Below, piece by piece: positions 19,655-60,650 of a DNA stretch of 64,000 nucleotides. Origin of the DNA: Vannielia litorea (GTDB lineage Bacteria > Pseudomonadota > Alphaproteobacteria > Rhodobacterales > Rhodobacteraceae). A program made the translations under genes and the position numbers. The stretch covers positions 62,001 through 126,000 of the forward strand of contig NZ_QTNQ01000001.1 of assembly GCF_018424695.1 (NCBI RefSeq), written 5' to 3'. The notes below the pieces were generated by a model that did not search any database, was not told the origin of the DNA, and was given only the letters and a program-made list of their open reading frames with translations. The first letter of the stretch is position 1. Each line of letters begins with the position of its first letter.

Positions 19655-19705
19655 GATGTTTCCCCCCAAATGAAACGAGACGAGTGGGCCCACGCGCCTC
19701 TTGAC

Positions 19706-19735
19706 TGTGCGCACAGCGCACAATATGGTCATATT
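19706..19735. promoter_or_regulatory. Two adjacent palindromes between acyl-CoA dehydrogenase and IclR gene
   Basis: Two perfect inverted repeats share one base. The first is TGTGCGC-ACA-GCGCACA at 19706-19722, the second AATATG-GT-CATATT at 19722-19735. They lie between the divergent starts at 19654 (minus) and 19758 (plus), which is where an IclR-type regulator would bind to control itself and its neighbour. Confidence 0.6.
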
Positions 19736-19757
19736 ACGCACAACATAGAGATCTAAG

Positions 19758-20570
19758 ATGAAGTCGTCAACACAGGGGCCCATCGATCAGGCGGACTGGT
19801 TCGTCACCTCGCTCGATCGCGGATTGCGCGTTCTGCGCGTGTTTGACGGAAGCACACCGATTATGCGCGTCAGCGAAGTGGCCAAGCGCGCGGAAATATC
19901 GAGAGCGGCAGCACGGCGCTTTCTGCTCACCCTCGAAAGTCTTGGCTATGTCGGTTGCGATGCAGAACAGCGCTACTTTCTCAAGCCACTCACGCTCGCG
20001 CTCGGCTATTCCTACCTGTCGTCGATCGGAATCGCCGAGCTTGTGCAGCCGATTCTCGATGCCACGATGGCCGCGACGGACGAATCTTGCAGCATGTCCA
20101 TTCTTGTGGGGAACGAGATCGTCTATCTTGCTCGGGCAAAACCACACCGACCACTGCAAATCGTGATCCGACCGGGCGACCGGCTACCCGCCAGTGTAAC
20201 CTCGATGGGGCGGGTGCTGCTATCCGGCCTTTCAGAACAGGATCTGAACGAATACCTCGAAACGGCCGAGCTCAGGGCATTCACGGATTACACCATAACG
20301 GATCCGGGCCTGTTGCGTGCGCGCATTGAGGCGGCGCGCAACGACGGCTACGCGCTTGTCGATAGCGAACTGGCGATCGGCATCGTGTCCATTTCTGTGC
20401 CAGTGTGCGGCCCCCAGGGCGATGTTCTGGCGGCACTCAACATCGCCAGCCAGGCCAGGCGGAGCCGGGGAACCGATCAGGTCTTCCCGCATCTTTCGAA
20501 GCTCCAGTCCGCCGCCGACCAGGTAGCAAAGATTCTGGCCTCGCTTCCCGCCGGGTTCTTCCACAGCTGA
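19758..20570 (+). CDS. IclR-family transcriptional regulator
   Basis: A 270-residue regulator. The N-terminal winged helix (SLDRGLRVLRVFDGS, then VSEVAKRAEISRAAARRFLLTL) is IclR-type, and the C-terminal ligand domain shows RPGDRLPASVTSMGRVLLSGL and SELAIGIVSISVPVCGPQGDV, which line the effector pocket in relatives such as PcaR/PobR-type regulators of aromatic catabolism. It is divergent from the acyl-CoA dehydrogenase-tctCA set and likely controls it through the palindromes at 19706-19735. The ligand is unknown. Confidence 0.9.
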   Translation: MKSSTQGPIDQADWFVTSLDRGLRVLRVFDGSTPIMRVSEVAKRAEISRAAARRFLLTLESLGYVGCDAEQRYFLKPLTLALGYSYLSSIGIAELVQPILDATMAATDESCSMSILVGNEIVYLARAKPHRPLQIVIRPGDRLPASVTSMGRVLLSGLSEQDLNEYLETAELRAFTDYTITDPGLLRARIEAARNDGYALVDSELAIGIVSISVPVCGPQGDVLAALNIASQARRSRGTDQVFPHLSKLQSAADQVAKILASLPAGFFHS

Positions 20571-31075: not shown

Positions 31076-31164
31076 CTTCGCTCCATAATGGCTTCGATGA
31101 ACCAGAAATCCTCCGTTGCTCAAACCCCTAAATCTCTCCGGTGGGCGCTGACGTCAGACACCGG

Positions 31165-33684
31165 ATGGCGAAACAGTTTCGTCCCTCCGTACTTGGGAGT
31201 GACGCGCCTACGCGGATTGCTTCACTGCCATCGGAAATCCGCAAGCATGTACTGCATGAAATCGCATCGAATAGCGGAATTGACGGCCTCGATCTTGCGA
31301 CCGCAATAGCGAAGAGTGACCGCGAGCCGGAAGTGAAAGCGACGGTTGTCGATGCGCTGTCATTTCGACGGGCGGACCGTCACGTCGCTGACTTATTAGA
31401 GGACGCAGGCGACGCGACCTACGACATCCTCGTCCGAAAGGGTCACCTCGACGAGATTGCAGTCGACGCTGTCCAGCAGGAACTCGAGCGCGCGCGCGAA
31501 AGGCGCACTGCTGGCGGAATATCGCACAATGAGCGCCTGCGTACGCTTATCTACTCGCCACGCGGAGATGAATGCGATGCCGACATTGCTGAGTTTGTTG
31601 CGGAAATGGAGATCGACCGCAAGCGCGATAGCGATAGCGATAGGCATCTATTGTACGAAGTACGGGAACGCTATCCGCAGGCTCTCGCTAATGGGTTGCT
31701 GCGTCGCCTGCGCGAACGCCGCGAGCTCTTCTACGGCGCGGATAATGTTCTTGCCACCGCCGGCTTTGCCCTTGAGGACGATGAACTGCTCGAAATTGCC
31801 CTCGAAGAGACAAACCGTCACGACGACCGCGCCGAAGCTGCCGCCTCAGTGCTGGGACCAGTCGCTGTTGGCCGGCTGATCGACGCGTATCTTGCCGCTG
31901 GGAAAGTCGTGCGCGACGCCAGCGGGAAATACGATCAGGCTGCGGGTGATCGCTACCACGGTCTGCGAGACCGTATCTGCCACACGCCGGGCGCAAGTTT
32001 GGTGGCCGCGATTGAGGCGCGGGCGGCAGATGCCGATATTGAAGAAATCGTCCAGTTAGCCGAGCTGTTTTCCCGTGAGACCTACGGCGATGAAGAACGG
32101 GCGCGACCCTTTAGCGAAGAAGCCTTGGCTGGAATCGGCAAGCTGGCGTGCGAATGGGCTGAGCGCATGCTCGCCGGAGGGGATGAGAAGCGCTGGCGCG
32201 TAGCTACCATTGCAACGATGATGAGCTGCGCACCGTCCGTCGCGCATCTTCCACTCTTGAAGAGAATGCTTGACGACAATTTACATCGCTATCGGTTTTT
32301 CCGCGAAAAAGCGACCGCGAGCGGCTGGAAGGATCGCGACGCTGTGCACGAAGCGCAGCATCCACACATGCATGAGTACCAACGAGCGTTCTTGGCGATC
32401 AATGTGCCGGAGACCGCAGCGCTGATGCGTGAATACCTGACGGATGAGCATTTTGGCGAGCTCGCGGCGCGTGTGCTAGCTGCCCAGTGGTCTCAGGCAA
32501 ATGAACCCAAAGACGACAAGAAATTCCTGATCGGCGTAGATTTCTCGCGCGTCGAAACGCGCCGGGAGGCCCGCGCCGCCGATCCCGCCGCGACATCTAT
32601 CGAAGCGGAGACTATCTTCGGCGCAATCGAGACCTTGATTATCGATGGTTCGTCAGATGCTCAAGTGAAGCTGGCAGTTGCGCTCGGCATTGTGGGAGCA
32701 CGGCTCCCTCACGGCCAACGTGACGCGACGATCCGTAAGCTAATTGCTCTCGCGCCGCGGCAGGCTCGCGCAGCCTTATTGTTGTCGCTGGTTCTCTCTG
32801 GCGAGGACATCGAAATAAAGCTCGTGGCCAACGGCATAGCTGAGACCTTCGAGGCGGCCGAGAAGGAGACTCGGATCCTGACACAGAGCGACGCGTATCA
32901 GCTTCGCGATTGGTTGCGCCTCTTGCCGTTCGCCACGCCTGTCTCCGACCTGCCCGTCATCGTGCGCAGCATGCCGGAGGCACAGCGCAATCCACGAATG
33001 CTCGAAGAGATGATCCGCGGACTTGGCAGTTCGTCTTCGGCCGACGCAGAAGACGCGTCTTTCGCGCTCGCTGAAGATGACCCGCGTCTCTACCAAAACC
33101 ATGCGTGGCGCGCGACCGTGCTGAGCATTGGCACCGTGTCAGCAGCGCACCGCTTAGTTGACTTGACCGTTAGCGGCGCGCTCGACGCCAAGTCACACGA
33201 CAGTTGGCATTGGCAACGCGAATTGGGAGGCTTTATTTCGGAGTTCTCCGAGGTCCGCACCTATGTCTACGACCTATTGAAGGATGGGCCAACAACCAAG
33301 CAGCTTGCCTCGCTTGCTGGTGCAATTGCCGAAGACCCAGGTACGGACGGTGTATTGATGCTGATTGATTTTGAGAAACGAACCGGACGCTCATACGTGG
33401 GTCGCCTGTCCATCGAAAGTGTCGTGTCTGAACGCGTTCCCGCCGAAGACTGGGAAAACGCATACAATATAGTGCCCGTCGCGGCGACCGAACTACGACG
33501 AAAGCTGCTGGCAATGACGGACAGCGGCGACAGAGACGATCCCGCCGCCCGCTGTCTCAAACTAATAGACAAGCTCCGAGACGAGTACGGTGCTCCAGAA
33601 TCTGAGCCTCGCCATCCCGACATAACGTCCGAGAAGCCTTGGCCGATCCTAGCATCGGCTCCAATTTCTGACGACGCGAGCTGA
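31165..33684 (+). CDS. Large helical-repeat-like protein, 5'-truncated by IS
   Basis: I cannot name this family. The visible 839 residues are rich in Ala, Glu, Leu and Arg, with recurrent helix pairs such as LLYEVRERYPQALANGLLRRL and ALAGIGKLACEWAERMLAGG, which read like HEAT- or Armadillo-type repeats. No Walker motif, HD or nuclease motif was seen. The reading frame continues upstream to a GTG at 31141 that lies inside the insertion sequence, whose end is at 31160. The native N-terminus has therefore been lost. The ATG at 31165 is the first one outside the element. Because Qat and AbiE systems follow, it may be the C-terminal part of a defence protein such as a NACHT-like NTPase with a repeat tail, but that is only an inference. 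Confidence 0.65.
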   Translation: MAKQFRPSVLGSDAPTRIASLPSEIRKHVLHEIASNSGIDGLDLATAIAKSDREPEVKATVVDALSFRRADRHVADLLEDAGDATYDILVRKGHLDEIAVDAVQQELERARERRTAGGISHNERLRTLIYSPRGDECDADIAEFVAEMEIDRKRDSDSDRHLLYEVRERYPQALANGLLRRLRERRELFYGADNVLATAGFALEDDELLEIALEETNRHDDRAEAAASVLGPVAVGRLIDAYLAAGKVVRDASGKYDQAAGDRYHGLRDRICHTPGASLVAAIEARAADADIEEIVQLAELFSRETYGDEERARPFSEEALAGIGKLACEWAERMLAGGDEKRWRVATIATMMSCAPSVAHLPLLKRMLDDNLHRYRFFREKATASGWKDRDAVHEAQHPHMHEYQRAFLAINVPETAALMREYLTDEHFGELAARVLAAQWSQANEPKDDKKFLIGVDFSRVETRREARAADPAATSIEAETIFGAIETLIIDGSSDAQVKLAVALGIVGARLPHGQRDATIRKLIALAPRQARAALLLSLVLSGEDIEIKLVANGIAETFEAAEKETRILTQSDAYQLRDWLRLLPFATPVSDLPVIVRSMPEAQRNPRMLEEMIRGLGSSSSADAEDASFALAEDDPRLYQNHAWRATVLSIGTVSAAHRLVDLTVSGALDAKSHDSWHWQRELGGFISEFSEVRTYVYDLLKDGPTTKQLASLAGAIAEDPGTDGVLMLIDFEKRTGRSYVGRLSIESVVSERVPAEDWENAYNIVPVAATELRRKLLAMTDSGDRDDPAARCLKLIDKLRDEYGAPESEPRHPDITSEKPWPILASAPISDDAS

Positions 33685-33824: not shown

Positions 33825-34577
33825 CTAGGAAACGATACGTGAGAGGTTGCCGTTGACGAGGCGCGAGACTTCCTCCGGTGTCTTTGACAGCACCTTCCCT
33901 AGAGCCTCGAGAACGGGCCCTACGTCTCCCGGGCTGACAGGCGTCCCGTCGCGCTCCACGAATGGGCCGTCAGTCTCCGTGAGAAGTGTGTTTTCCGGGA
34001 TCGCTCGGATGAGAGCCTGACCTTTCGGGTTCGCGAACATGCGTTCGTTCACGGAGAAGAAGCAGCCCAAGTCGACCGCACGGCGCGCCTCGGACACGCT
34101 CCCGCTGAACCAATGGAGCACAATCCTGCCCCTCTCAGGAGGGAGGAACTTTTCCACCATGTCCAGGACATGCTTCGCGGCACGGGCACTGTGTACGCTC
34201 ACGATCTTATCTCCTGCGCGCGCGCACCGCCGCAGTACGCGCTCGAAGATCATTTTCTGCTGATCGAAGGAGCGATAGTGTCGCGGGCTGGCATCGAGCC
34301 CCACCTCGCCGACGTAACGTGTCTCGGGTAGAAGGTCCTCGAAAATCGATATCTCAGACCCCCTTTCGGAAACAAGCTGAGGGTGCAGACCGATTGCGAC
34401 ACGAACGAAGGCGCTGCCCTTGGTGAGTTCGACGTTTCTGGGAAAGGCACGCGGCGTGGTGGTCACGGCGAGGGTCGCGACCTCCTCCGCGTCGCATCGA
34501 CGGATCGCCTCCGCCAGGTCGGGGTAGAGGTCGAGATGTGCGTGGAAATCGACGCGACGCGGTTTCAAGACACTCAC
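33825..34577 (-). CDS. qatD: QatD, TatD-like nuclease of the Qat defence system
   Basis: A 250-residue TatD-family metal hydrolase. Metal ligands are visible in VDFHAHLDLYPD (H-x-H), YVGEVGLDASP (Glu), SVHSARAAKHV and LHWFSGSVSEA (His) and LLTETDGPF (Asp), so the active site looks intact. QatD is the fourth gene of the Qat antiphage system, and its order and overlaps agree with that here. It starts by overlapping the qatC stop (ATGA). Role in defence is known at the system level; the molecular mechanism of QatD is not settled by this sequence. Confidence 0.85.
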   Translation of the reverse strand: MSVLKPRRVDFHAHLDLYPDLAEAIRRCDAEEVATLAVTTTPRAFPRNVELTKGSAFVRVAIGLHPQLVSERGSEISIFEDLLPETRYVGEVGLDASPRHYRSFDQQKMIFERVLRRCARAGDKIVSVHSARAAKHVLDMVEKFLPPERGRIVLHWFSGSVSEARRAVDLGCFFSVNERMFANPKGQALIRAIPENTLLTETDGPFVERDGTPVSPGDVGPVLEALGKVLSKTPEEVSRLVNGNLSRIVS

Positions 34578-35938
34578 CCCGGCTCGGCGACCACGCCGTC
34601 AAGTATGTCGGCAACCTCAAACACGCCCCGGCGAAAGACGTCAGCGTAGGAGGGTATCTCGGCTGGCACGTCGATCAACGGCCCCGGTTTGTGGACTAGT
34701 ATCCGCGCCAGCCCGGGATCGGCACGCAGCCTTTCGACCATAAGCTGAAACGAGCGAACATGCTCCCCTTCGGCACGATCACTTCTAAGTGTCTGGGCAG
34801 ACAGATCTTCAACGGTGTAGGTTGTAGGGTCGTTCGTTCCAAGTCCGGCGTGCAACGAGGCGCGTCTGATCATGCACGGCACGCAATACCCGCAGTGGCG
34901 AGGGGACAGGCCCTTGTATCGAGCCTTTGCGGGAGAGGAGCATGACATGGACGATCCCACGATCCGACGTAGGTAGGGCAGGTCGGCACAGTCCCCAACC
35001 ATCTCTCCTTTCGTCTGGTGCCGATAGGGGTTCTCGATGGTCGCATCGAGCTCGAGGCTGTCAATCAACCGTTGGACGCTTGCCATGAAATGCGGATGAG
35101 CCGTCCGGGTGCTAAGCGCTCCGAGGCGGAGCGGATCCAGCGGAACGTTCAGGGCGATGAGCCCGTTCTCCGGAACGCTCACCGTCGTCCGCATACCGAA
35201 CGATGCCGCTGCCAGCGTCGCGAGCGCGTAGAACAGGAACGAGCGGCCACGCTGCGTGTCCTCGACCTGGCCGGTGTCGAGAGCGTTGCGATCGAAGCCG
35301 AGCCTCACGCGGAGCGACTTGAAAGCGTCGTCGCCGAATTTCGTTTCGAGCCGTTCGAGCAGGTAAGACTGCGCCTTGGCAGTCTCAGCGTCCCAATAGT
35401 GGCTGACGAAGAGCGGTCGGCCGCCTGAAGTCAACGTGTCGATGGCGGCGATCAGACTGTCGAGGCCGCCCGAGAAGAGCGACACACCTTGCAGTCCGTG
35501 CAAGGGCAACTTGTCGGTGTCAGTGGCGAGAGTCTTGTGACTTGCAGGTCGTTGCCTCACGAACAGGCGCCAACGATCGCCTGTCAGGAAACGCAACATG
35601 CGTCCCACGTGCTCGGTGATTTCAGACCACTGATCTCTATCGTGAACCGGGAGGTAGAGATCGATCTCACGCGTCCAGCCGCCCTGCCCGTTGACGGCCC
35701 TGGAGATGCGGGTGTCGGACGCGTTTACTAGGGCCGCGAGCAGGGCCAGATCGATCGCAGCCTCCGGAGTCCGAAGGCCGAGGCCAGAAAGCTGTTCCAA
35801 GGCCTGTCCAAGTCCGAAGGCCAGGCGGCCGTCCCCGTCGAGGAAGTCCAACTCGTGGACAGCAGAATCGCCCTGCACGATTGCGACCTTCGCCTTGTCC
35901 TTGGCGCCGAGACGGGCGACCAGACTGAACCGTCTCAT
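34574..35938 (-). CDS. qatC: QatC, QueC-like PP-loop ATPase of the Qat system
   Basis: A 454-residue protein. SGGLDS at 156-161 is the PP-loop of QueC-type ATPases, which in queuosine synthesis activate a carboxylate and form the nitrile preQ0. A C-terminal cysteine cluster, HCGYCVPCMIRRASLHAG, resembles the zinc site of QueC. The N-terminal 150 residues are an extension not found in the housekeeping enzyme. It overlaps qatB at its start and qatD at its end (ATGA in both cases). In Qat systems this enzyme is required for phage protection; its substrate here is unknown. Confidence 0.87.
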   Translation of the reverse strand: MRRFSLVARLGAKDKAKVAIVQGDSAVHELDFLDGDGRLAFGLGQALEQLSGLGLRTPEAAIDLALLAALVNASDTRISRAVNGQGGWTREIDLYLPVHDRDQWSEITEHVGRMLRFLTGDRWRLFVRQRPASHKTLATDTDKLPLHGLQGVSLFSGGLDSLIAAIDTLTSGGRPLFVSHYWDAETAKAQSYLLERLETKFGDDAFKSLRVRLGFDRNALDTGQVEDTQRGRSFLFYALATLAAASFGMRTTVSVPENGLIALNVPLDPLRLGALSTRTAHPHFMASVQRLIDSLELDATIENPYRHQTKGEMVGDCADLPYLRRIVGSSMSCSSPAKARYKGLSPRHCGYCVPCMIRRASLHAGLGTNDPTTYTVEDLSAQTLRSDRAEGEHVRSFQLMVERLRADPGLARILVHKPGPLIDVPAEIPSYADVFRRGVFEVADILDGVVAEPG

Positions 35939-36810
35939 TCCGCCTCTCTCAAGGTCTGCATCAATTCTAGAGAGGCTGCATAGAGGTCGGTCACGTACTG
36001 GTCTATCTGACTTGTATCTAGAGTGGACAGTGTATCGCCCGCAGCCTGAAACCGGTCCCGGACGCAGCCGACCACGAAGGTGTGCAGCATGCGTTGCGCG
36101 CGTTCGACCGCGGCGGTGTCTTCGGCGAGTTTGATCGCGTTTGTGCCGACCTCGTTCAAAATCTTACCCTCGATCGAGCGTGCCACCACGCCGATGAAGA
36201 CCTCCTGTAGATCGTCCTGGCTCAGTTCGTCGAAGTTGCCGAGGCCTTCGGCGGCCAATGCGGCGATCGTCTCCAGGAGCGCATGACGTGCGAGAGCCTC
36301 GTCGATCGTACCGCCGGGCGGACAAAGTGCGTCGGTGAGCGCGACGAAGACCTCTTCGGCGGGCGCTCCGGCGAGGCCTTCAAGGTTGAAACGCCGCAGG
36401 GCCTCAGTCGGTCCCGACTGGGATATGGCGGAAGCGAGCCCGGCGATCCCGCCCGCCACGGCCCGAGAGCTTCCCATCTGCCGAGCCGTGGCGCGACCTC
36501 CACCGGCGGTGGACACGAACTTTCCCGCCCCGCGTCGGATCCGGTCTCCGCTTCCGGACCGCGTGCCGGACGACATGTCGGTCTTGGCCCCGCGAAAGCT
36601 CTGTCCGGGAGCCGGTGGCACGATCGGCGGATATGGAGCCGGAGGCGTCGGGGCCTGAGGGGGTCCGTCCGGTGCCTGTCCATCGTCCGGGGCACCGTCC
36701 GTTCCGTCGGGAGGAGGCTCCGTGGGAGGGGCCGCTGGTTCAGGTGCCGGTTCACCGACCCAGGAGGGGACCATCGGTCTGCCGCCGCCGAAACTTCCCG
36801 AGGTTCCCAT
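35935..36810 (-). CDS. qatB: QatB, Qat defence system subunit
   Basis: A 291-residue protein of unknown fold. The first 100 residues are a low-complexity, Pro- and Gly-rich region (PAPEPAAPPTEPPPDGTDGA) followed by a helical domain that includes EVGTNAIKLAEDTAAVERAQ and a C-terminal segment ending LELMQTLREAE. I know the family mainly from its place in Qat systems, between qatA and qatC. It overlaps qatA by one base (TGATG) and qatC by four. A structural or adaptor role is plausible. Confidence 0.78.
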   Translation of the reverse strand: MGTSGSFGGGRPMVPSWVGEPAPEPAAPPTEPPPDGTDGAPDDGQAPDGPPQAPTPPAPYPPIVPPAPGQSFRGAKTDMSSGTRSGSGDRIRRGAGKFVSTAGGGRATARQMGSSRAVAGGIAGLASAISQSGPTEALRRFNLEGLAGAPAEEVFVALTDALCPPGGTIDEALARHALLETIAALAAEGLGNFDELSQDDLQEVFIGVVARSIEGKILNEVGTNAIKLAEDTAAVERAQRMLHTFVVGCVRDRFQAAGDTLSTLDTSQIDQYVTDLYAASLELMQTLREAE

Positions 36811-38753
36811 CAGCGCCTCCCCCGTTTCCCAAGTGACGCAACTTTTCCGACGGCCTTGGCGGCCGCACTTAGGCTGGAATTGTCGTCACGATTGGACCAG
36901 TCGGCCAATAGCGCTCCATAATCTGCCGCGGGCTCTGCCTCGGTGAACGCCCCGCCCCAACCCGTCACCACCCAGGGCCCGAGTTTCTTCGCTGGCAAAT
37001 CTTTGAAGAACTTGACCAGGGACGCCTGCAAGAAAGTATGCTCCTGACAGATTGCTGCCAGACCATGGATGCCAGGTGGCTCCTCTCTCAGATCCTCGAC
37101 GTCGGCCACCTTGGTCCGCAGCGCGTCGAAGAGCTGTTCGGCTTCGACCGAAGTCAGCCGCTTGATCTCGGCCGACACCTGTCTAACCTGAAGCGGCGGC
37201 CCCATCAGTTTACCGAGGAGCTCGTCCAGTTCTCCCAACTGCGCCTGTGCGCCATAGCCTCCTCGCCGGTCACGGCTGACGAAAACGTAGGGTCTGAGAT
37301 CGACCTCGGAGAGCGACGGAGAGATCGCGGCCCACCGCTTGGCCCACTCTACATTCGGCCACTCGGGAAGATCGGGTATCGAGGCCGGCTTCTTGTCGCC
37401 CGTTGCCCGTTTCCCGGCACTCGCTGCAGCGTTGTCCGGTTTGGCGGCGGACGCATTCGCTTCCAGCGCGTCGAGTTCTGCAGAATGTCCCGTCTCTGCC
37501 GCACCGCGCGCGAGTGTGTCGAAGACTTCGGGCGCGAACCGCTCGGCCAGCATGATCTTCGCGAGCACGCCCAGGTTCAATTCGTCGGCAAAGCCACGCT
37601 CCTCGGCGATCGCGAGGCGCATCGCCATCGTGTTGATGAAGCGCTTGATCTGGCGCGGGTTGCCTCGTGAGCCGTCGGTGAGGATCGGAGCGATCCGGTA
37701 GGCGATGTCGAGCGCCCGTTCGACGGCGTCCGGAATCGTCCCGAATGCTTTGGTCAGAGTGGGACGGTCCAAGCCAGGGCCGGTCCAGGGTCTCTGCAGA
37801 GCCTCCCGGGCGATCGGCACCAAGGTCTCGAACTCTCGTGATGCTTCGCCGCATTCGTTCAGCACCAACAACATCGCCACATAGATGCGCGTTTCAGCGT
37901 AGCCGAGCGCCGGAAGTCGGAACGGCACCTGGATGAGCTTCTCCAGGTAGTTGCGGGCGTAGGTGGCCGGACCTGTGGAGGTCGGAAGGTCTGGGAAGTG
38001 CTGTCGGACGCTGTACTCGATCATGCCCTCGTCGGCGGCGATGACGAAGGCTGCGCGCGGGACGAACAGGAAGAGGCGTATGGCTTCCAACGTACCGATC
38101 GCGGTCTGCGGCAGGCACCGGTCCAGGTCGTCGACCAGAACGATCAGGCGATCGATGTCGGCGACCTCGAGCAGCTCTTCAAACTCTTGGCGAAACGCGT
38201 GCATCTGTTCGGGTGTGCTCTCCTGTTCCGCCTTTTTCAGAAATGATCCGGCGCTCGCGACCAAGGCCTTTGCGTTGTCAGGTGTCAGCGCCTCGGCCCC
38301 GTTCGCCATGATGGTTGCGGCCGCGTCGCGAATGTCGGAAAGCGTTTCCGGCGTCGGGATGCCCGTCGCGAGTGTGACGCCATAAGATCCCGCCTTGCGG
38401 GCTGCCTTCATCCAGTCGATGCGCCGCCAGAGTTTCTTGGCCTGATCTTTGACCTTCTGTGACCCGGACCTGCTCTTGACCAGCTCTTCGACGATGGTCT
38501 CGATCAGGACGGTCTTGGCGTCATCGAACCCTTGAAACAGCCACCCGTTGAAACGGATGCACAGGGTTCTGTCATCGTTCTCGCAGGCTTCCTCGACCAT
38601 CATGAGAACGCTCGATTTACCCGCTCCCCAATCGCCATGCACGCCAACGCTGAGTGGCTCGTCCGATTTTTCGGATACGATGCGCACAACCGTCTTCGCG
38701 ACCGCCTCGTAGTAGAGCAGGTCGACCGAAGTCTCATTGTCGGCGACGATCAT
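36810..38753 (-). CDS. qatA: QatA, KAP-type P-loop NTPase of the Qat system
   Basis: A 647-residue ATPase. Walker A is GDWGAGKS at 40-47; Walker B is LIVLVDDLD at about 203-211. The KAP-type arrangement is supported by LCIRFNGWLFQGFDDAKTVL after the P-loop and by RNYLEKLIQVPFRLPALG and GNPRQIKRFINTMAMRLA downstream. Unlike classical KAP NTPases I see no pair of long membrane helices. It is the first gene of the qatABCD operon, which is tightly overlapped throughout and transcribed away from the abiE genes. Confidence 0.87.
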   Translation of the reverse strand: MIVADNETSVDLLYYEAVAKTVVRIVSEKSDEPLSVGVHGDWGAGKSSVLMMVEEACENDDRTLCIRFNGWLFQGFDDAKTVLIETIVEELVKSRSGSQKVKDQAKKLWRRIDWMKAARKAGSYGVTLATGIPTPETLSDIRDAAATIMANGAEALTPDNAKALVASAGSFLKKAEQESTPEQMHAFRQEFEELLEVADIDRLIVLVDDLDRCLPQTAIGTLEAIRLFLFVPRAAFVIAADEGMIEYSVRQHFPDLPTSTGPATYARNYLEKLIQVPFRLPALGYAETRIYVAMLLVLNECGEASREFETLVPIAREALQRPWTGPGLDRPTLTKAFGTIPDAVERALDIAYRIAPILTDGSRGNPRQIKRFINTMAMRLAIAEERGFADELNLGVLAKIMLAERFAPEVFDTLARGAAETGHSAELDALEANASAAKPDNAAASAGKRATGDKKPASIPDLPEWPNVEWAKRWAAISPSLSEVDLRPYVFVSRDRRGGYGAQAQLGELDELLGKLMGPPLQVRQVSAEIKRLTSVEAEQLFDALRTKVADVEDLREEPPGIHGLAAICQEHTFLQASLVKFFKDLPAKKLGPWVVTGWGGAFTEAEPAADYGALLADWSNRDDNSSLSAAAKAVGKVASLGKRGRR

Positions 38754-38862
38754 TCGTGAAGTAGCCCAAGTTTAACTAATTGGCTTTTTCCTTACCATGA
38801 GTTACACAATCGGACCAAGATCAAACTGAACGCCGGTTTACAAATTGCAAGATAAACAAACC
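38754..38862. promoter_or_regulatory. Divergent promoter region of qat and abiE operons
   Basis: This 109-base AT-rich stretch lies between the divergent starts of qatA (38753) and abiEi (38863). No clean palindrome was identified. AbiEi antitoxins of this family often autoregulate, so this is the likely binding site. Confidence 0.4.
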
Positions 38863-39711
38863 ATGAGTACGCAACGGGGGCAGAAGCTAAACGCACTCCA
38901 ACGGCTCTTGCCGGAAGGTTTGGTCGCAAGCACGCAGTGGCTGAAGGATGCTGGGTACTCGAGCGCACTGCGGAGCAAATATGTGTCGAACGGTTGGCTC
39001 GAACAGCCGGCGCGCGGGATCTACAAGCGCCCCGGAGCGGAGACACAGTGGCAACATATGGTCGTCTCGCTCCAGTCCATCATGCGTCTGCCGGTCTCGG
39101 TTGGAGGACTCACCGCCTTGGAAATGCAGGGCTACGGTCACTACGTCCCGCTCGGGAACCGAAAGCGAGTCGCTCTCTACGCGGAGGCCCGCCTTCCGAA
39201 GTGGCTCGATGAGGTCAGTCCGTCGATACAGTTCCAGACTCACAACGCGCACCGCCTCTTTAAGACTGACACCGTCACGAGAGCGATCGAAACCTTGCCC
39301 AAGTTTCCGTCCGAACATGACGAGACACAAGCGAAGCCTCTGGACGGTGGGTTGCGTCTGCATGTCTGGGGCGACCGTGCTTGGCCAATGATCGTGTCCA
39401 CGCCCGAGCGGGCGACACTTGAATTTCTGGACGATGTTCCGACAAAGCATTCCTTCGAGCATACAGCCGACCTTTTCACCGGTCTGGCGAACCTCAGTCC
39501 TCGCCGTGTGCAGAAGCTTCTTGAGACCTGTGACAGCGTCAAGGTCAAGAGACTGTTCCTGTGGTTCGCCGAGCGGGACGCACACGCTTGGTTTGGACGC
39601 CTGGACCTTGCCTCGATAGACACGGGTCGGGGCAAACGGGTGATCGCCAAAAACGGGCGGCTCGATGCAAAGTACCAGATCACGGTGCCGGAGGGCATGC
39701 ATGGCGATTGA
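38863..39711 (+). CDS. abiEi: AbiEi-type antitoxin (type IV toxin-antitoxin)
   Basis: A 282-residue protein with an N-terminal winged helix (NALQRLLPEGLVASTQWLKD, GYSSALRSKYVSNGWLEQPARGIY) and a helical C-terminal domain, the AbiEi layout. GGLTALEMQGYGHYVPLGN is a recognisable stretch. It should bind the operator and counteract the nucleotidyltransferase toxin without direct contact. The stop at 39711 overlaps the toxin gene start by 11 bases. The ATG at 38863 is chosen over an in-frame TTG at 38845. Confidence 0.85.
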   Translation: MSTQRGQKLNALQRLLPEGLVASTQWLKDAGYSSALRSKYVSNGWLEQPARGIYKRPGAETQWQHMVVSLQSIMRLPVSVGGLTALEMQGYGHYVPLGNRKRVALYAEARLPKWLDEVSPSIQFQTHNAHRLFKTDTVTRAIETLPKFPSEHDETQAKPLDGGLRLHVWGDRAWPMIVSTPERATLEFLDDVPTKHSFEHTADLFTGLANLSPRRVQKLLETCDSVKVKRLFLWFAERDAHAWFGRLDLASIDTGRGKRVIAKNGRLDAKYQITVPEGMHGD

Positions 39712-40614
39712 AGAACGCTACCGTCAACAGGTCGACCTGCTTGTGCGCGTCCTGCCGTCCGTGTCACCCGAAGAAGTTTTCGCCTTGAAGGGCGGCACGG
39801 CCATCAACCTGTTCGTCCGCAACCTGCCGAGACTTTCCGTCGACATCGACCTGACCTATTTGCCGATCCGGCCGCGGGCGGACTCGCTTTCTGAGTCGAG
39901 CAAGCGCTCCGTCGGGTATCGACATCGATCGCAAGCGCTATCCCCGAGGCAAAGGTGTACGAGAGCCGTTTGCACAAAGAGGGTACGTCGAATCGGCTGG
40001 TCGTCAGAACGCCTGACACACAGATCAAGATCGAGGTGACGCCGGTGACCCGCGGTTGTGTCTTCGAGCCTGTTACGATGCCGGTCGCGCCAGCGGTCGA
40101 GGACCAGTTTGGCTATGCGGAGACGCCGGTCGTTTCCTTCGAGGATCTGTACGCGGGCAAGATCGTTGCCGCGCTCGATCGCCAACATCCAAGGGATCTG
40201 TTCGACGTGAGAGGCCTTCTTGCCAACGAGGGTATTTCCGACAGCCTTCGCCGTGCATTTCTCGTCTACGTCGTAAGCCACAACAGACCCGCGGCGGAGA
40301 TACTCGCGCCCAACCGTCGCGATCTTACCAAGGATTTTGAAGACAACTTCGTCGGCATGTCGGTCAATCCGGTCTCACTCGTAGAACTTGTTGATACACG
40401 TGAGAGACTGATCGCCACGATCGTCGCAGAGATGCCGCACACGCACCGGGACTTCCTCGTCGGGGTAGAGAAAGGCGATCTGCACTGGTCATCTGTCGGT
40501 CTCGACGACATGGCGGAATTGCCCGCCATCCGCTGGAAGCTCTCGAACCTCGACAAGCTACCGTCGGAACGCCGCGGCGCACTCGCCGAAGACCTCTTGA
40601 GGGTTTGGCGATGA
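39701..40614 (+). pseudogene. abiEii: AbiEii-type nucleotidyltransferase toxin, frameshifted
   Basis: The gene begins MAIEERYRQQVDLLVRVLP and contains the nucleotidyltransferase motifs FALKGGTAINLF and LSVDIDLTYLP (GG...D-x-D). Near 39892-39895 the frame shifts: after ...RADSLSE the expected continuation VEQALRRVSTSIASAI lies in the next frame, which then gives AKVYESRLHKEGTSNRLVVR, KIEVTPVTRG and YAGKIVAALDRQHPRDLFDV up to the stop at 40614. One missing G in GAGG would explain it. As read, the toxin ends early and lacks its C-terminal half, so it is probably inactive unless this is a sequencing error or a recoding site. Confidence 0.85.
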
Positions 40615-41876
40615 GCGACACGGTATTCTGGTCATGGCAGGATGACCTTCCCGCACGATCGAATCGTGCGTTCATACGCGACTGCCTGGCCGCAGCGGTC
40701 GATCGCGTGAGCAATGCGCTAGACGTCGACGAGATGGAGCGTGTGGATCTCGACCACGACACGAAAGGCACGCCCGGAATGGCGGACATCAGTCAGACCA
40801 TTCTGGAGAAGATCACTGGATGCGCGGTCATGGTCGCGGACGTCACCCCAATCGTTCGGACGGAAGCTGGCAAGGCGTTGCCCAATCCGAACGTAATGGT
40901 CGAGCTAGGCTTCGCGATGAACGCGATCAGGTTCGACCGCATTATCGCTGTCTTGAACACCGCGAACGGGGACCGCGTCGAAACACTACCATTCGACATT
41001 CGGCACCGGAGGATTCTGACATACGCGCTCGCCGAAGATGCGACGAAAGCGGATCGGAGAGCACAACGTGATGCACTCACTTCGAAGCTCGCAGACGCCA
41101 TCGCCGTCAATATCTCCCAGGTTCGTGACGAACGGTCCGCTTCGGATGAGATCGTGGGAGCGGCCAGTGACCCGGGATCGGACGGCCTCTGGAATGCAGA
41201 CTGGCCAATCCAGCATGTTGGACCTTTCGGTGCGAGGCAAAAGGTAAGTCCGGTCTCGGTGTCCCGTGCTTGGCTCAGAGTGATACCGGCTGGTTTTCGC
41301 GACGGCGTTCCTCCGATCTCAGCCGTTGAGCAACTTTCCGGGAACGCACGCCTTTGGGCACCGAGAGGGGCTGGGAACGGAGGCGATTCTGGATCAAGCG
41401 GATTTGGCTTCGTGTCTTACTGGATATCGGGCGAAGAAGATGACGGCACACGGCAGGCCCACAACTTGGCCTCGTTCCTGGAGGAAACGGGCGAGGTCTG
41501 GATGTCTGATGGCGTCGCCTTCGATCATCGAAAGGACCGTAACTGGATATCCTACGCGCATCTGCTGACCAACTGGGCGCGGGGATTGGAGAACGCAATG
41601 GCCTGCCTGGACGCCCTTGGCGCGTCGAGTCGTCGACGCGTGATCGTCGGCGTCGAAGGACTGGAAGGCGCATTCTGGCCAGCACAGGATGGGTACATTC
41701 CGGCGCAGTCACGCAAGCCCGACCTGCTCTATGACAGAACCAAACGCACATGGCCCGCCGAGGTCCAGACGGAGTGCCTCAGAACGGCGTGGAACGGTCT
41801 TCGCAACGCCTTCAGTCTCGATCCGATGACGGAGGAGGACTTCGCCAGGTACTACGAGGTCAGGAAGAGGAGCTAG
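40611..41876 (+). CDS. TIR-like/Rossmann nucleotide-binding protein, probable defence effector
   Basis: A 421-residue protein. Its first 170 residues carry a pattern seen in TIR-like or nucleotide-binding proteins of defence islands: VFWSWQDDLPARSNRAFI, a DLDHDTKG(T)PG turn, DISQTILEKITGCAVMVADV, ALPNPNVMVELGFAMNAI and LPFDIRHRRILTYAL. The remaining 250 residues are unassigned. The ATG at 40611 overlaps the abiEii stop (ATGA), so it is translationally linked to the AbiE pair. It may degrade or sense a nucleotide such as NAD in response to phage, but that is inference from the fold and position. Confidence 0.72.
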   Translation: MSDTVFWSWQDDLPARSNRAFIRDCLAAAVDRVSNALDVDEMERVDLDHDTKGTPGMADISQTILEKITGCAVMVADVTPIVRTEAGKALPNPNVMVELGFAMNAIRFDRIIAVLNTANGDRVETLPFDIRHRRILTYALAEDATKADRRAQRDALTSKLADAIAVNISQVRDERSASDEIVGAASDPGSDGLWNADWPIQHVGPFGARQKVSPVSVSRAWLRVIPAGFRDGVPPISAVEQLSGNARLWAPRGAGNGGDSGSSGFGFVSYWISGEEDDGTRQAHNLASFLEETGEVWMSDGVAFDHRKDRNWISYAHLLTNWARGLENAMACLDALGASSRRRVIVGVEGLEGAFWPAQDGYIPAQSRKPDLLYDRTKRTWPAEVQTECLRTAWNGLRNAFSLDPMTEEDFARYYEVRKRS

Positions 41877-50418: not shown

Positions 50419-51606
50419 ATGGATAATACCTTTGTGCATGAGGATCTCAACGCGGTGATCCGCCAGCATTCGGAATGGCTGGCGAACCAGTTGCATTCGC
50501 AACGTGAGAGCCTGTTTCCACCCGATGCCGAGAAGACCATGCGCAAATTCACCTCTGGTGAGGCTGCGGCGCTGCTCGGCGTAAACGATTCCTATCTTCG
50601 CAAACTCAACTTGGATGGCAAAGGGCCTTCTCCCGAGCTGACCGCCGGCAACCGTCGTCTTTACTCGGCGCAGGATATCCAAGCGCTGCGTGTGCTCCTT
50701 GAAAAAACCGCTCGCAAGCCGGGCGATTACGTTCCCGGACGACGAGAGGGTGATCATCTTCAGGTCATCGGCGTGATGAATTTCAAGGGCGGGTCCGGAA
50801 AAACAACAACCTCTGCCCATCTCGCCCAACGGCTTGCCCTGCGCGGATATCGTGTGCTGGGCATTGATCTTGACCCACAAGCTTCCTTCACCGCGCTGCA
50901 CGGCGTTCAGCCGGAATTGGACCTCGAAGATGGCGGCACTCTCTACGATGCGATCCGCTATGAGGACCCGGAGCCGATCCGGTCGGTCATCCGCAAGACC
51001 TATATCCCCAATTTGGACTTGATCCCCGGCAACCTCGAATTGATGGAGTTCGAGCACGACACCCCGCGCGCGCTGGCGCAGGGCAATGCCGGACTTTTCT
51101 TCTTCCGCGTGAAGGAGGCGCTGGCCCAGGTCGATGAGGACTACGACGTGGTCGTCATAGATTGCCCGCCGCAGCTTGGCTTTCTGACCATGTCCGCCCT
51201 GTCCGCGGCCACGGGCGTTCTGGTGACCATCCATCCAGAGATGCTCGATGTGATGTCCATGTCGCAATTCCTCCGCATGACAGCCGACCTCATGGACGTG
51301 ATTGCCGAGAGCGGCGCTGACATGTCTCATGACTGGATGCGCTATGTTTTGACCCGCTACGAGCCGCAGGATGCGCCGCAGAACCGCATCGTGGCTTTCC
51401 TGCGAACAATGTACGGCGAAGCCGTGCTGAATTCGCCCATGTTGAAGTCTACAGCCATCTCAGATGCGGGCCTGACCAAGCAGACACTTTATGAAGTGGA
51501 ACGCAGCGCGTTCACGCGTTCCACCTATGATCGCGCGATTGAGAGCCTGAATACGCTAAATGACGAGATCGCCGACCTAATCCAGAAAACCTGGGGGCGC
51601 ACATGA
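50419..51606 (+). CDS. repA: RepA, ParA-type plasmid partition ATPase
   Basis: A 395-residue protein. An N-terminal region with a MerR-like HTH (FTSGEAAALLGVNDSYLRKL) is followed by a ParA ATPase: deviant Walker A GVMNFKGGSGKTTTSAHLAQ, Walker A' in VLGIDLDPQASFTALHG and Walker B YDVVVIDCPPQLGFLTMSAL. It drives segregation with RepB and represses the repABC operon. Its stop overlaps the repB start (ATGA). Confidence 0.93.
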   Translation: MDNTFVHEDLNAVIRQHSEWLANQLHSQRESLFPPDAEKTMRKFTSGEAAALLGVNDSYLRKLNLDGKGPSPELTAGNRRLYSAQDIQALRVLLEKTARKPGDYVPGRREGDHLQVIGVMNFKGGSGKTTTSAHLAQRLALRGYRVLGIDLDPQASFTALHGVQPELDLEDGGTLYDAIRYEDPEPIRSVIRKTYIPNLDLIPGNLELMEFEHDTPRALAQGNAGLFFFRVKEALAQVDEDYDVVVIDCPPQLGFLTMSALSAATGVLVTIHPEMLDVMSMSQFLRMTADLMDVIAESGADMSHDWMRYVLTRYEPQDAPQNRIVAFLRTMYGEAVLNSPMLKSTAISDAGLTKQTLYEVERSAFTRSTYDRAIESLNTLNDEIADLIQKTWGRT

Positions 51607-52619
51607 CCAGTGGCAAGAAGAAGCGCATGTCAATGCTGGACAGTCTCGCGGCAGCTGGGGCCCCCTCCCCTGCCCCTCAGACAGGTGCTGTGACACCGAT
51701 GATGACCTCGAATCGTGCCCTTCGGTCCGCCCGCGACGCGGTCGATTCCCATCATGTTTGGGAACTGGACCCGGCGAGCATCGAAGACGGGCGTATGGCG
51801 GACCGGCTTGACCCGGCCGATGTAATGGATTTGCGCGATGCGATTGAGGCGAACGGTCAGACTGTTCCGATCCTCGTGCGACGTGCGCCGGGTGAAGATG
51901 ATCGCTACCTTTTGGTCTATGGGCGACGCAGGCTGGAGGCGATCCGTCAGTCCGATAAGGTTACCAAGGTTCGCGCGTTAGTCACCAACCTGGATGACGA
52001 CAGCGCTCTGCGTGCTCAGATTTCGGAGAACATGGGTCGGCGCGATTTGTCTTTTATTGAAAAGGCCCTGTTCGCAAAGGACCTTGTGTCGTCCGGCTTC
52101 GGAAATCAATCTCAGGTTGCAGAAATTCTTACCGTCACGAAGTCGTCCATATCTATGGCGATCGCGATCGCGGACATGGTCGGGCCGGATCTGGTACGCG
52201 CCATTGGCGCCGCCCATGGCATTGGCCGACCCCGATGGGAATCCCTTGGTCGGGCCATCGACGAGAATGGTCTGGACCGCGAGGACCTTATCGGGATCGC
52301 GAAAGAGGCACGTGAAAATGCCGAGACCTCCATGGTGGTGGATGACATTGCCTCTACCAATGACCCGTCCATCCAAACGTTCCTGGCCGTAGAAAAGGCT
52401 GTGACCAAGGCGATTAAACCGGCCAAGTCGCCCTCCCCTGCCCCACCTTCCAGCGTCCCGCTGAAGATCGGCGGCAAACGCGGCGGCACGGTCAAACGCA
52501 CTGCCAAGGGCCTATCGATCGAGTTGGCGGATGGAGACTTCGCCGATTGGGTCGAGACGCAAGTGCATGACATGATTGAAGACCTTCACGAACGCTGGAA
52601 GCAGCGGTCGGAAGACTGA
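51603..52619 (+). CDS. repB: RepB, ParB-type plasmid partition protein
   Basis: A 338-residue ParB-family protein. The conserved NTPase-like part is in VMDLRDAIEANGQTVPILVR, DRYLLVYGRRRLEAIR and ISENMGRRDLSFIEKALFAK. The HTH is NQSQVAEILTVTKSSISMAI. It binds parS; the two sites at 54036 and 54081 are exact matches to the repABC parS consensus. Confidence 0.92.
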   Translation: MTSGKKKRMSMLDSLAAAGAPSPAPQTGAVTPMMTSNRALRSARDAVDSHHVWELDPASIEDGRMADRLDPADVMDLRDAIEANGQTVPILVRRAPGEDDRYLLVYGRRRLEAIRQSDKVTKVRALVTNLDDDSALRAQISENMGRRDLSFIEKALFAKDLVSSGFGNQSQVAEILTVTKSSISMAIAIADMVGPDLVRAIGAAHGIGRPRWESLGRAIDENGLDREDLIGIAKEARENAETSMVVDDIASTNDPSIQTFLAVEKAVTKAIKPAKSPSPAPPSSVPLKIGGKRGGTVKRTAKGLSIELADGDFADWVETQVHDMIEDLHERWKQRSED

Positions 52620-52796
52620 GGAAGAGCAGAAATCAAAGAAGGAGGCACGAAAAGGCAAAAGAAAAGGTCCCGCAAAGCGACCACTCCACGAGACCCTAAC
52701 TTGTTTCTAGCACCTTCAAGGTAGTGTCCGGAGCTATTTTCCGCAAGTCCAAAGTGATTCGCGGACCGGGATATTTTTGTCTTCGTGAATGACAAA
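52620..52796 (-). ncRNA. Probable antisense counter-transcribed RNA of repABC
   Basis: In repABC plasmids a short antisense RNA from the repB-repC gap controls repC. On the minus strand a GC-rich hairpin at 52666-52682 (GGTCGC, loop TTT, GCGGGACC) is followed by TTTTCTTTT, a good terminator for such an RNA. Its likely start is around 52700-52740. Exact ends and promoter are not resolved; the coordinates give the gap that should contain it. Confidence 0.55.
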
Positions 52797-54032
52797 ATGG
52801 ACTACACGCCCGTAACGCCGTTCCGGCGAACGATAGATGCTGCCATCCTGAAACATCAGGCAGCGACCCAGGAAGACCTGCCCCCAGTCGGCGCCAACAA
52901 GTGGGAGGTCCTGAGGGAGCTCGCTGCCGCTCGAGTCGCGTTCGGCTTGTCCGATCGGGATTTGACGGTGCTTCAGGCGCTGGTCAGCTTTCACCAAGCG
53001 ACAATTCTCGGAGGCAATGACAGCGAATTGATTGTACATCCGTCCAACAAGGCGATTTGCGAGCGCCTGAACGGCATGCCCTGCTCGACGATGCGGCGCC
53101 ACCTCTCCAACCTTGTGCAGACTGGCTTTGTTGTCCGGCGCGATAGCCCCAATGGGAAGCGCTATGCCCGCCGCTACGGCGACGAAAAGGTTGCGTTTGG
53201 GTTCGACCTCTCTCCGCTCGTTCGACGCTTCCAGGAGGTTTGTGAGGCCGCTGAGACCGTCCGGGCCGCAGAAGAGCGGTACAAGCGCCTACGTGCCACT
53301 GTGAGCCTCATGCGGCGTGACCTCGCAGGGCTGGCCGAGTACGGGCGCTCACTTCGTCCGGATCAGGGCGTCTGGGACCAATTCTCTGATCTTGCGGCCC
53401 TAATGGCCCGAGATCTTCGCAGAAAACTCGAAATGGAAGACCTTAGGCGCATCGAAGACTCTTTGGGGTCAGCCTTAGATCACGCCAGAAACCTTCTGGA
53501 TGGCTGTGAAACAGAAAATATGAGCACCAATGATGCTGTTTCTGAGCAGCACTATCAGAATTCAAATAAAGACTCTTATGATCTTGAACCTCGCTTAGAA
53601 AAAGCGCGGGGCGGAGGCGTTGCGCGCGATATTCCAGAAGTTGCCGATAGCCCTCTGTGTTCTGAAGATGAGGCGAACCCAACGGCAATTACTGACGATC
53701 AACTGATGCCGAATATACCGCTTGGTCTCGTCCTCGCCTCCTGTCAGGAATTCAAAGCTTATTCCGAGCAGCCTGTTCGCCACTGGCACGATCTGGTCCG
53801 TGTAGCTGATGTGGTCAGGCCCATGATGGGTATTTCCCCGTCCGCGTGGGACGAGGCGAAACGCTATATGGGTCCCGAAGAAGCGTCTGTTGTGATCGTT
53901 GCAATGCTTGAACGGTTTGCGGATATCCGATCACCTGGAGGCTACTTGAGAACCCTATCTTCAAAGGCAGCAATTGGGGAGTTCTCCTGCGGTCCGATGA
54001 TCATGGCCTTGATGCGGCGGGATGCTGCATGA
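52797..54032 (+). CDS. repC: RepC replication initiator
   Basis: A 411-residue RepC. The N-terminus MDYTPVTPFRRTIDAAILKH and the segment PSNKAICERLNGMPCSTMRRHLSNL, which contains the DNA-binding winged helix, are characteristic. RepC is the rate-limiting initiator, and in this plasmid family the origin lies inside the gene. I use the ATG at 52797; a GTG at 52785 is four codons earlier. Confidence 0.9.
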   Translation: MDYTPVTPFRRTIDAAILKHQAATQEDLPPVGANKWEVLRELAAARVAFGLSDRDLTVLQALVSFHQATILGGNDSELIVHPSNKAICERLNGMPCSTMRRHLSNLVQTGFVVRRDSPNGKRYARRYGDEKVAFGFDLSPLVRRFQEVCEAAETVRAAEERYKRLRATVSLMRRDLAGLAEYGRSLRPDQGVWDQFSDLAALMARDLRRKLEMEDLRRIEDSLGSALDHARNLLDGCETENMSTNDAVSEQHYQNSNKDSYDLEPRLEKARGGGVARDIPEVADSPLCSEDEANPTAITDDQLMPNIPLGLVLASCQEFKAYSEQPVRHWHDLVRVADVVRPMMGISPSAWDEAKRYMGPEEASVVIVAMLERFADIRSPGGYLRTLSSKAAIGEFSCGPMIMALMRRDAA

Positions 54033-60511: not shown

Positions 60512-60512
60512 C

Positions 60513-60650
60513 TCAGCGCGCCTCGCCATGTTCGGGGTCTTTTGGTCTGGCGGCGAGCAGATATATGACCGCGCCGATGGCGATCAGCGGTGTCAACATG
60601 CCGAGGAGGCCGAAGACCATGCCGGTGGCGGTGCAACATCCCATCATCAT
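60513..60650 (-). CDS. Small Cys-Cys membrane protein of the mer operon (45 aa)
   Basis: A 45-residue protein, MMMGCCTATGMVFGLLGML then TPLIAIGAVIYLLAARPKD. One hydrophobic helix follows a Cys-Cys pair at residues 5-6. AAAGGA lies 9-14 bases before the ATG at 60650, which overlaps the preceding gene's stop. It sits directly before merA. It may help pass Hg(II) to MerA; I do not know a named family. Confidence 0.72.
   Translation of the reverse strand: MMMGCCTATGMVFGLLGMLTPLIAIGAVIYLLAARPKDPEHGEAR

Follow-up and report, generated by a model that had tools for sequence, protein, structure and literature searches.

Among described anti-phage systems, the one closest to the locus considered here is the four-gene QatABCD, in which QatB and QatC suffice for defence against lambda vir; a QatBC complex, and a need for the glycine at position 2 of QatB (Gly2), for the ATP loop of QatC, and for a pair of QatC threonines, have been demonstrated with other Qat operons (PMC13279940). 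Type IV CBASS likewise pairs a QueC-like enzyme, Cap9, with a protein that starts Met-Gly, but Cap9 keeps the Tyr and Asp that bind 7-carboxy-7-deazaguanine (CDG) where QatC has Thr and Thr, and QatB has no structural homology to the CD-NTase substrate of Cap9 (PMC13279940). Here we describe a Qat operon at 33825-38753, on the minus strand and in the order qatA-qatB-qatC-qatD, in a 64,000-nucleotide stretch of the alphaproteobacterium Vannielia litorea (assembly GCF_018424695.1, contig NZ_QTNQ01000001.1, positions 62,001 to 126,000 of the forward strand), which we call the window and to whose first letter all coordinates refer. Taken as a whole, this locus is quite likely an anti-phage operon of the QatABCD type, intact and carried by a RepABC plasmid, whose QatC modifies the N-terminus of QatB. 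The features of the operon are as follows.

36810-38753, minus strand: qatA, KAP-family NTPase, 647 amino acids, ATG start
35935-36810, minus strand: qatB, putative protein substrate of QatC, 291 amino acids, ATG start
36799-36810, minus strand: N-terminal MGTS tip of QatB with Gly2 as the proposed acceptor; MGTS in 9 of 9 aligned QatB (window and eight plasmids)
36505-36810, minus strand: Pro/Gly-rich N-terminal tail of QatB, by composition, about residues 1-102 (limit approximate)
34574-35938, minus strand: qatC, QueC-like ATP-dependent enzyme, 454 amino acids, ATG start
35456-35473, minus strand: SGGLDS pyrophosphate loop of QatC, residues 156-161, aligned with the loop of 9zee_B
35102-35113, minus strand: STRT of QatC, residues 276-279, by alignment, containing the two threonines found where QueC and Cap9 have Tyr/Asp
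33825-34577, minus strand: qatD, TatD-family nuclease, 250 amino acids, GTG start

The family assignment draws on agreement at several levels. Specifically, i) the operon has no internal stops, and consecutive genes overlap by 1, 4, and 4 bases; ii) each product exceeds the cut-off of its NCBIfam equivalog model (QatA, NF041923, 854 bits against 600; QatB, NF041924, 211 against 100; QatC, NF041925, 498 against 280; QatD, NF041926, 334 against 230), and PADLOC agrees (892 bits for QatA, 284 for QatB over residues 1-291, 594 for QatC, and 367 for QatD); iii) QatA matches PF07693 KAP_NTPase at 160 bits and carries Walker A GDWGAGKS at residue 40 and a Walker B-like IVLVDD at 204; and iv) QatD aligns with 3gg7_A (E 3.5e-69) and has HAH at 12, GEVGLD at 90, and TETD at 200, which we take to be the metal-site motifs of TatD. 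The MGTS tip of QatB and the ATP loop, Thr pair, and zinc cysteines of QatC are shared with described Qat systems as well. Nothing diagnostic differs: the window replaces most of the QatB-QatC salt-bridge residues of Pseudomonas aeruginosa, its copy lies on a RepABC plasmid, and its host assembly is without queC, queD, and queE. By sequence, no solved structural relative of QatA was found at E 0.01; a sigma-70 consensus scan of 38500-39000, which may not suit this organism, gave neither promoter nor terminator for qatA; and there were no tRNA genes and no Rfam matches at the gathering score.

Chance is excluded as the source of the QatABCD family scores, and we regard it as virtually certain that the operon is an ordinary, intact member of the known QatABCD family; by its sequence it would be expected to defend against phage. 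An initial annotation of the window had placed all four genes at these coordinates, in the known order with each overlapping the next, and had described the motifs of the NTPase, the QueC-like enzyme, and the TatD-like nuclease as intact; both statements agree with what we find. It had named a profile search for similarity of QatB to known QatB proteins as the check that could refute it, and that similarity is present, both in the family score and in alignments that begin at residue 1, one to 9zee_A, the QatB crystallised from P. aeruginosa (E 4e-45), and one to 9vll_A, the chain crystallised beside a second QatC (E 5e-48).

The long Pro/Gly-rich N-terminus of QatB reported earlier is likewise real, with Pro and Gly making up 41% of residues 1-105 but 11% of the remainder. 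The window protein keeps the MGTS tip and P15-S-W17, and MGTS begins the protein in 90 of 92 QatB loci (84 with ATG, 6 with GTG), the other two being L055, which is cut at a contig end, and L089, a broken gene; the tip is far more conserved than the remaining tail. In P. aeruginosa QatB, G2D or deletion of residues 16-22 abolishes defence, deletion of the variable residues 34-40 leaves it intact, and the tip has been modelled within the QatC active site (PMC13279940). The annotation had proposed that the tail may be a flexible tether. If it were merely that, and QatB were unmodified, low-complexity Pro/Gly composition is what one would see, but conservation of the tip would not stand so far above that of the rest of the tail, the G2D and 16-22 mutants should not differ from the 34-40 deletion as published, and the relative described below would not keep Gly2 on a QatB fold that has no tail; we consider this explanation quite improbable. 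The tether proposal holds as to composition, and the conserved tip (90 of 92) together with the published need for G2 and residues 16-22 argues that the tail is probably more than a tether, and better read as a substrate tail (PMC13279940).

Alignments of the window QatC begin at residue 1 both for 9zee_B, the QatC crystallised from P. aeruginosa (E 1e-135), and for 9vlk_A, another QatC chain (E 7e-131). The window protein has SGGLDS at 156, STRTAHP at 276, and cysteines at 333, 349, 352, and 355; the adenosine-binding Arg and Phe and the four zinc cysteines are present, but the CDG-binding Tyr and Asp of the QueC domain are not kept, Thr277 and Thr279 standing in their place. Across the family, R232, F236, and the four cysteines occur in 93 of 93 loci and D63 in 92 of 93; SGGxDS and STRT also occur in 93 of 93, which is in part built in, as both patterns served in the genome scan. 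The equivalent threonines of P. aeruginosa QatC (T278 and T280) and its ATP loop are required for defence (PMC13279940). Where dN/dS (the ratio of nonsynonymous to synonymous substitution rates) could be estimated, in four divergent pairs, it was 0.045-0.13, the window's own pairs being near synonymous saturation.

Two of the loci are irregular. L006, on plasmid p2 of Pukyongiella litopenaei, has QatC and QatD with no QatA or QatB match, is the sole QatC of the 93 without Asp63, and is possibly a remnant; in L011, on Bradyrhizobium ottawaense plasmid pBoOM27 (5001-7130), QatC and QatD matches share one frame (a coding sequence of 2130 bp), a possible natural fusion.

The chemistry we propose would run as follows: removal of Met1 would expose Gly2 of QatB at the tip of the tail; the tip would enter the QatC active site; and QatC would use ATP to activate an acid and join it to the QatB N-terminus. 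QatB and QatC would form the core of the system, with QatA and QatD widening its phage range. That QatB is modified at its N-terminus we judge likely. Which acid is attached is a separate matter, and one on which the host genome bears. Libby et al. report that QatC fails to restore queuosine in an Escherichia coli queC deletion, a result that does not decide the question of CDG (PMC13329287), and no experiment on queD or queE in combination with Qat turned up in the literature searched, though one may exist elsewhere.

In the host genome, QueC has no match over cut-off (three matches at 21-25 bits), and neither PTPS/QueD (PF01242) nor QueE (TIGR03365) has any match, whereas the QueC, PTPS, and QueE models match in 12, 9, and 10 of 14 control genomes. 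The assembly is a draft of 231 contigs rated 99.99% complete, and none of six congeners, of which two are assembled as single contigs, has PTPS either, so that its absence here is unlikely to be an assembly gap. The host would therefore not be expected to make CDG.

To place this host among others we drew on the QatC locus scan (the best 80 of 541 relatives), taking 50 of these genomes, mostly isolates (G001-G050), with the window's host for a survey of 51 Qat hosts by the same models (QueC at cut-off); a completeness rating was available for the window's host and for none of the other 50. Of the 51, 11 had no QueC over cut-off, 17 no PTPS match at any score, 11 no QueE match at any score, and 9 none of the three. 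Absence of PTPS proved insufficient by itself as a sign that CDG is not made: six genomes (G003, G008, G011, G025, G026, and G037) have QueC over cut-off and QueE below cut-off (42-71 bits) with no PTPS, which suggests a QueD replacement unseen by PF01242, and we therefore required that all three genes be absent. This leaves out G035 (PTPS at 71 bits, no QueC, no QueE), G006 (QueC only), G028 (no QueC; QueE at about 25 bits), and G040 (QueC; no PTPS; QueE at about 23 bits), while G007, G010, and G036 count as PTPS-positive at 28-33 bits only.

Besides the window's host, the nine are Marinibacterium profundimaris, Hoeflea alexandrii, Mesorhizobium sp. B4-1-3, Rhizobium sp. SG_E_25_P2, an uncultured Jannaschia, an uncultured Roseobacter, Litorivita pollutaquae, and Tropicimonas marinistellae. 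They are scattered on the QatC tree (nine changes; at least six with weak forks collapsed by eye), and near-identical QatC occurs in Marinovum FF3, where the pathway is present, and in Litorivita, where it is absent. Eight of the nine have full-length frames for all four qat genes, QatA being in two pieces in the other (L017), and the QatB tip is kept in all nine. TGT is present in 31 of the 32 Qat genomes tested (32 of the 51 were searched). Its absence from the window's host was dropped as proof of no queuosine, since 6 of 6 congeners have TGT and a gap in the draft is possible.

Several observations weigh against the chemistry proposed, or against CDG being dispensable to it. i) The QatC reaction was tried and not reconstituted in the 2026 structural paper, which terms it a key open question (PMC13279940). 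ii) The triple R407/R410/R414 of P. aeruginosa QatC lies at the interface with QatB, and the triple mutant lost defence (PMC13279940); in the window it is kept at the first site alone (R403; A406 and L410 at the others), and the QatB residues that face the interface, E179, D181, and E182 in P. aeruginosa, are all Ala. iii) In near-identical pairs dN/dS is uneven, from 0.04 to 1.07, the window QatB against that of plasmid pMaD1 giving 1.07 on very few changes. iv) The missing TGT gene means that the host draft may have gaps. v) QueD (with QueC and QueE) is present in 6 of 13 Qat-bearing Rhodobacterales against QueD in 13 of 150 genomes of the family background (Fisher p 0.001), and with one genome per genus in 4 of 11 (p 0.018), the background being one genome per genus of the host's GTDB family and its 13 counting PTPS above 100 bits (22 of 150 at any score); this enrichment points to some benefit from CDG. 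vi) QueC, QueD, and QueE lie together in several Qat-bearing Rhodobacterales genomes (for example G002, G044, and G047), so that a single event or a single gap could account for the loss of all three. vii) Qat is often plasmid-borne and may be idle in some hosts; the plasmid of the window may pass from host to host, so that its Qat may be idle in the present one.

As to the interface, these residues vary widely over 93 QatC and 92 QatB loci, and because Leu is the commonest residue at the last position (410; 49 of 93) we read the window's changes as family variation rather than decay, though the contact itself differs. Between QatC 403-410 and QatB 180-187 of the window, the P. aeruginosa salt-bridge patches are mostly replaced on both sides. 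Counts of acidic QatB and basic QatC residues rise together weakly over 92 loci (Spearman 0.34), a co-variation we do not press as evidence because related sequences are not independent.

Two accounts of the attached group then compete. QatC could, like Cap9 of type IV CBASS, deazaguanylate QatB using CDG, and Qat would then be dormant, or only in transit on plasmids, where a host lacks queCDE. The published likeness in structure to Cap9, together with the N-terminal glycine (PMC13279940; PMC13329287), the enrichment of QueD among Qat-bearing Rhodobacterales, and the fact that this operon is plasmid-borne beside broken defence genes all speak for CDG; the nine hosts with none of the three genes, their scatter over the QatC tree, the full-length frames in eight of them and the QatB tip in all nine, and the loss from QatC of the Tyr and Asp that bind CDG (PMC13279940) speak against it, and we hold this account to be a real but somewhat doubtful possibility. 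QatC could instead attach another acid, or a salvaged deazaguanine other than CDG, an account that we place slightly short of an even proposition: the Thr pair in place of Tyr/Asp (our alignments and PMC13279940) and the existence of Qat hosts without CDG genes are consistent with it, and the near-universal TGT fits salvage of queuosine precursors, but the QueD enrichment counts against it here. Against it, too, we know of no such alternative substrate of QatC. That the group attached is not CDG made by the host, as the host without queC, queD, and queE suggests, is to our mind evenly balanced, and it is held there by the QueD enrichment, by the possibility of a single loss or gap, and by that of an idle plasmid-borne Qat.

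A second form of the same pairing emerged from the 150 family genomes. The QatC model matches 23 of them, the window's alone over cut-off; six (G053, G054, G055, G066, G078, and G140) match at 193-224 bits, and the other matches are a canonical QatC that is split (G117), two weaker QatC-like proteins (G079 and G057), and the rest below 31 bits. The split copy, L129 (contig 4 of G117, another genome of the host's family), is a canonical QatC divided over two matches. In the six, the QatC-like gene follows a partner of about 260 amino acids that starts [ML]GH (four with ATG, two with TTG; MGH if TTG starts are allowed). The enzyme frame is open over 615-657 amino acids in five copies, compared with 454 for the window QatC, and is interrupted in G078; a seventh pair lies on a Leptospira noguchii plasmid. 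Further copies came from the viral contigs of IMG/VR, which supplies 107 of 114 loci (L132-L238; loci from outside IMG/VR are L098-L102, L104, L123-L128, and L131). A scan of IMG/VR with the partner profile gave 32 loci and one with the enzyme profile 165 relatives, of which 80 were kept, against 6 loci for the QatC profile, a rough comparison only, because the scans used different patterns; QatC itself has two weak matches in phage records, both in named Listeria phages.

The enzyme is homologous to QatC (hhalign E 4e-50), but scores below the cut-offs of the QatC models, at or above that of PF06508, and 46 bits against PHROG 1550, 'QueC-like queuosine biosynthesis'. The partner has no NCBIfam, PADLOC, or Pfam match in the two copies scanned (L098 and L100) and no PHROG match in the one scanned (L125). 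The enzyme is present in 32 of 32 partner-scan loci and the partner in 71 of the 80 enzyme-scan loci, or beside 71 of the 79 distinct enzyme open reading frames of that scan, the other eight of which start less than 260 bases from the end of the stretch. Among the 71 partners, 66 begin [MVL]GH, one MGN (L189), three are cut at the end, and one is incomplete (L162), the GH starts having been located with the GH pattern itself; Gly2 and His3 are invariant in 54 aligned partners, a set selected for that start. The 114 loci, many of them short, gave no match to QatA or QatD, whereas among the 93 canonical loci the same queries recover QatA in 89 and QatD in all 93.

Profile comparison of the partner with QatB gives probability 68 and E 5e-5 over 141 columns. 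A structural model from a single partner sequence was poor (predicted local distance difference test, pLDDT, 46); a model built on 54 sequences was confident and was used instead (pLDDT 92.9; predicted template modelling score, pTM, 0.90). The best PDB match of this model is QatB (Foldseek probability 1.00, E 0.065), with Z 12.4 over 209 residues against 5.7 for the next unrelated chain, and the match covers QatB 64-287, which is the fold without the tail. Because the mere arrangement of a helical bundle can give Z values up to 13, the argument for a QatB fold lies in the margin in Z and in the QatC-like neighbour. The module thus resembles Qat in having an enzyme homologous to QatC and a partner with the predicted QatB fold and Gly2, and differs in having no QatA or QatD match, no long tail, and MGH in place of MGTS. 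Of the loci whose neighbours were scanned, L124, L125, and L126 have serine recombinases, L124 also a C5 methyltransferase and an MzaB-like ATPase, and L126 also a type III methyltransferase; among IMG/VR loci, L171 has a primase and L231 an integrase. To our knowledge the module has no name. On the model we interpret it as a QatBC reduced to its minimum, lacking the tail and carried by mobile elements, with a putative role in defence.

We tentatively suggest, at somewhat less than even confidence, that QatBC is the core of a wider QueC-like family that would modify the N-terminal Gly of a helical partner with a group other than host-made CDG, and that exists in two forms: the four-gene, MGTS-tailed Qat and the two-gene, tail-less MGH module of prophages and other mobile elements, with neither QatA nor QatD. 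The part on the attached group follows from the recurrence of intact Qat in hosts without queC, queD, and queE.

The surroundings of the window operon are those of a plasmid, and contain the following.

50419-54032, plus strand: repA, repB, and repC, RepABC plasmid backbone; TIGR03453, TIGR03454, and NF040974, all over cut-off
59081-60529, minus strand: merA, mercury(II) reductase; TIGR02053 at 505 bits, cut-off 454
38845-39711, plus strand: AbiEi antitoxin-type regulator; PADLOC AbiEi at 309 bits, PF11459, PF17194
39665-40614, plus strand: abiEii, broken frame in two overlapping open reading frames (ORFs), of which the 219-amino-acid one spans model positions 83-287 of 290
31141-33684, plus strand: 847-amino-acid ORF, C-terminal part of a NACHT-C-terminal (NCAB2) protein; PF22726 at 103 bits
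29724-30704: insertion sequence (IS) transposase beside the truncated NCAB2 ORF

The operon lies on a contig of 259 kb, and the plasmid DNA of the window matches roseobacters. Together, the RepABC genes and merA support the earlier description of a plasmid with mercury resistance. The same description called the plasmid catabolic, a label that would here depend solely on similarity at the DNA level to annotated Rieske, Gfo/Idh, and PDR/VanB oxidoreductase genes (about 21.4-25 kb of the window) and on one acyl-CoA-dehydrogenase-like ORF (18500-19783) that passes no cut-off. Downstream of abiEii, a protein of 423 amino acids (40605-41876) has very weak TIR-like matches.

The 12.5 kb that hold the operon and both neighbours are 98.1% identical on plasmid pMaD1 (CP010856) of Marinovum algicola DG 898. 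There the NCAB2 coding sequence is 4377 bp, with a 3819-bp gene upstream of it, and abiEii is an undivided 915-bp coding sequence at the same place; in the window the match begins inside the NCAB2 gene, near 31167, and abiEii is broken. Within a defence island that shows partial wear, Qat is thus the portion that has stayed whole. That it is flanked by a shortened NCAB2 gene and by an abiEii with a broken frame might also be taken to mean that the operon is itself a decayed, non-working passenger, but all four qat reading frames are intact, as are the catalytic motifs tested, and on pMaD1 all four genes are annotated whole within the near-identical stretch; we consider decay highly improbable.

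The operon by itself is one more Qat. Its value lies in a host-based test of QatC chemistry, a natural host without CDG genes making the question of the QatC substrate directly testable, and in the two-gene relative, a second and smaller system for what would be the same chemistry, whose form fits the published finding that QatBC alone defends against some phages (PMC13279940).

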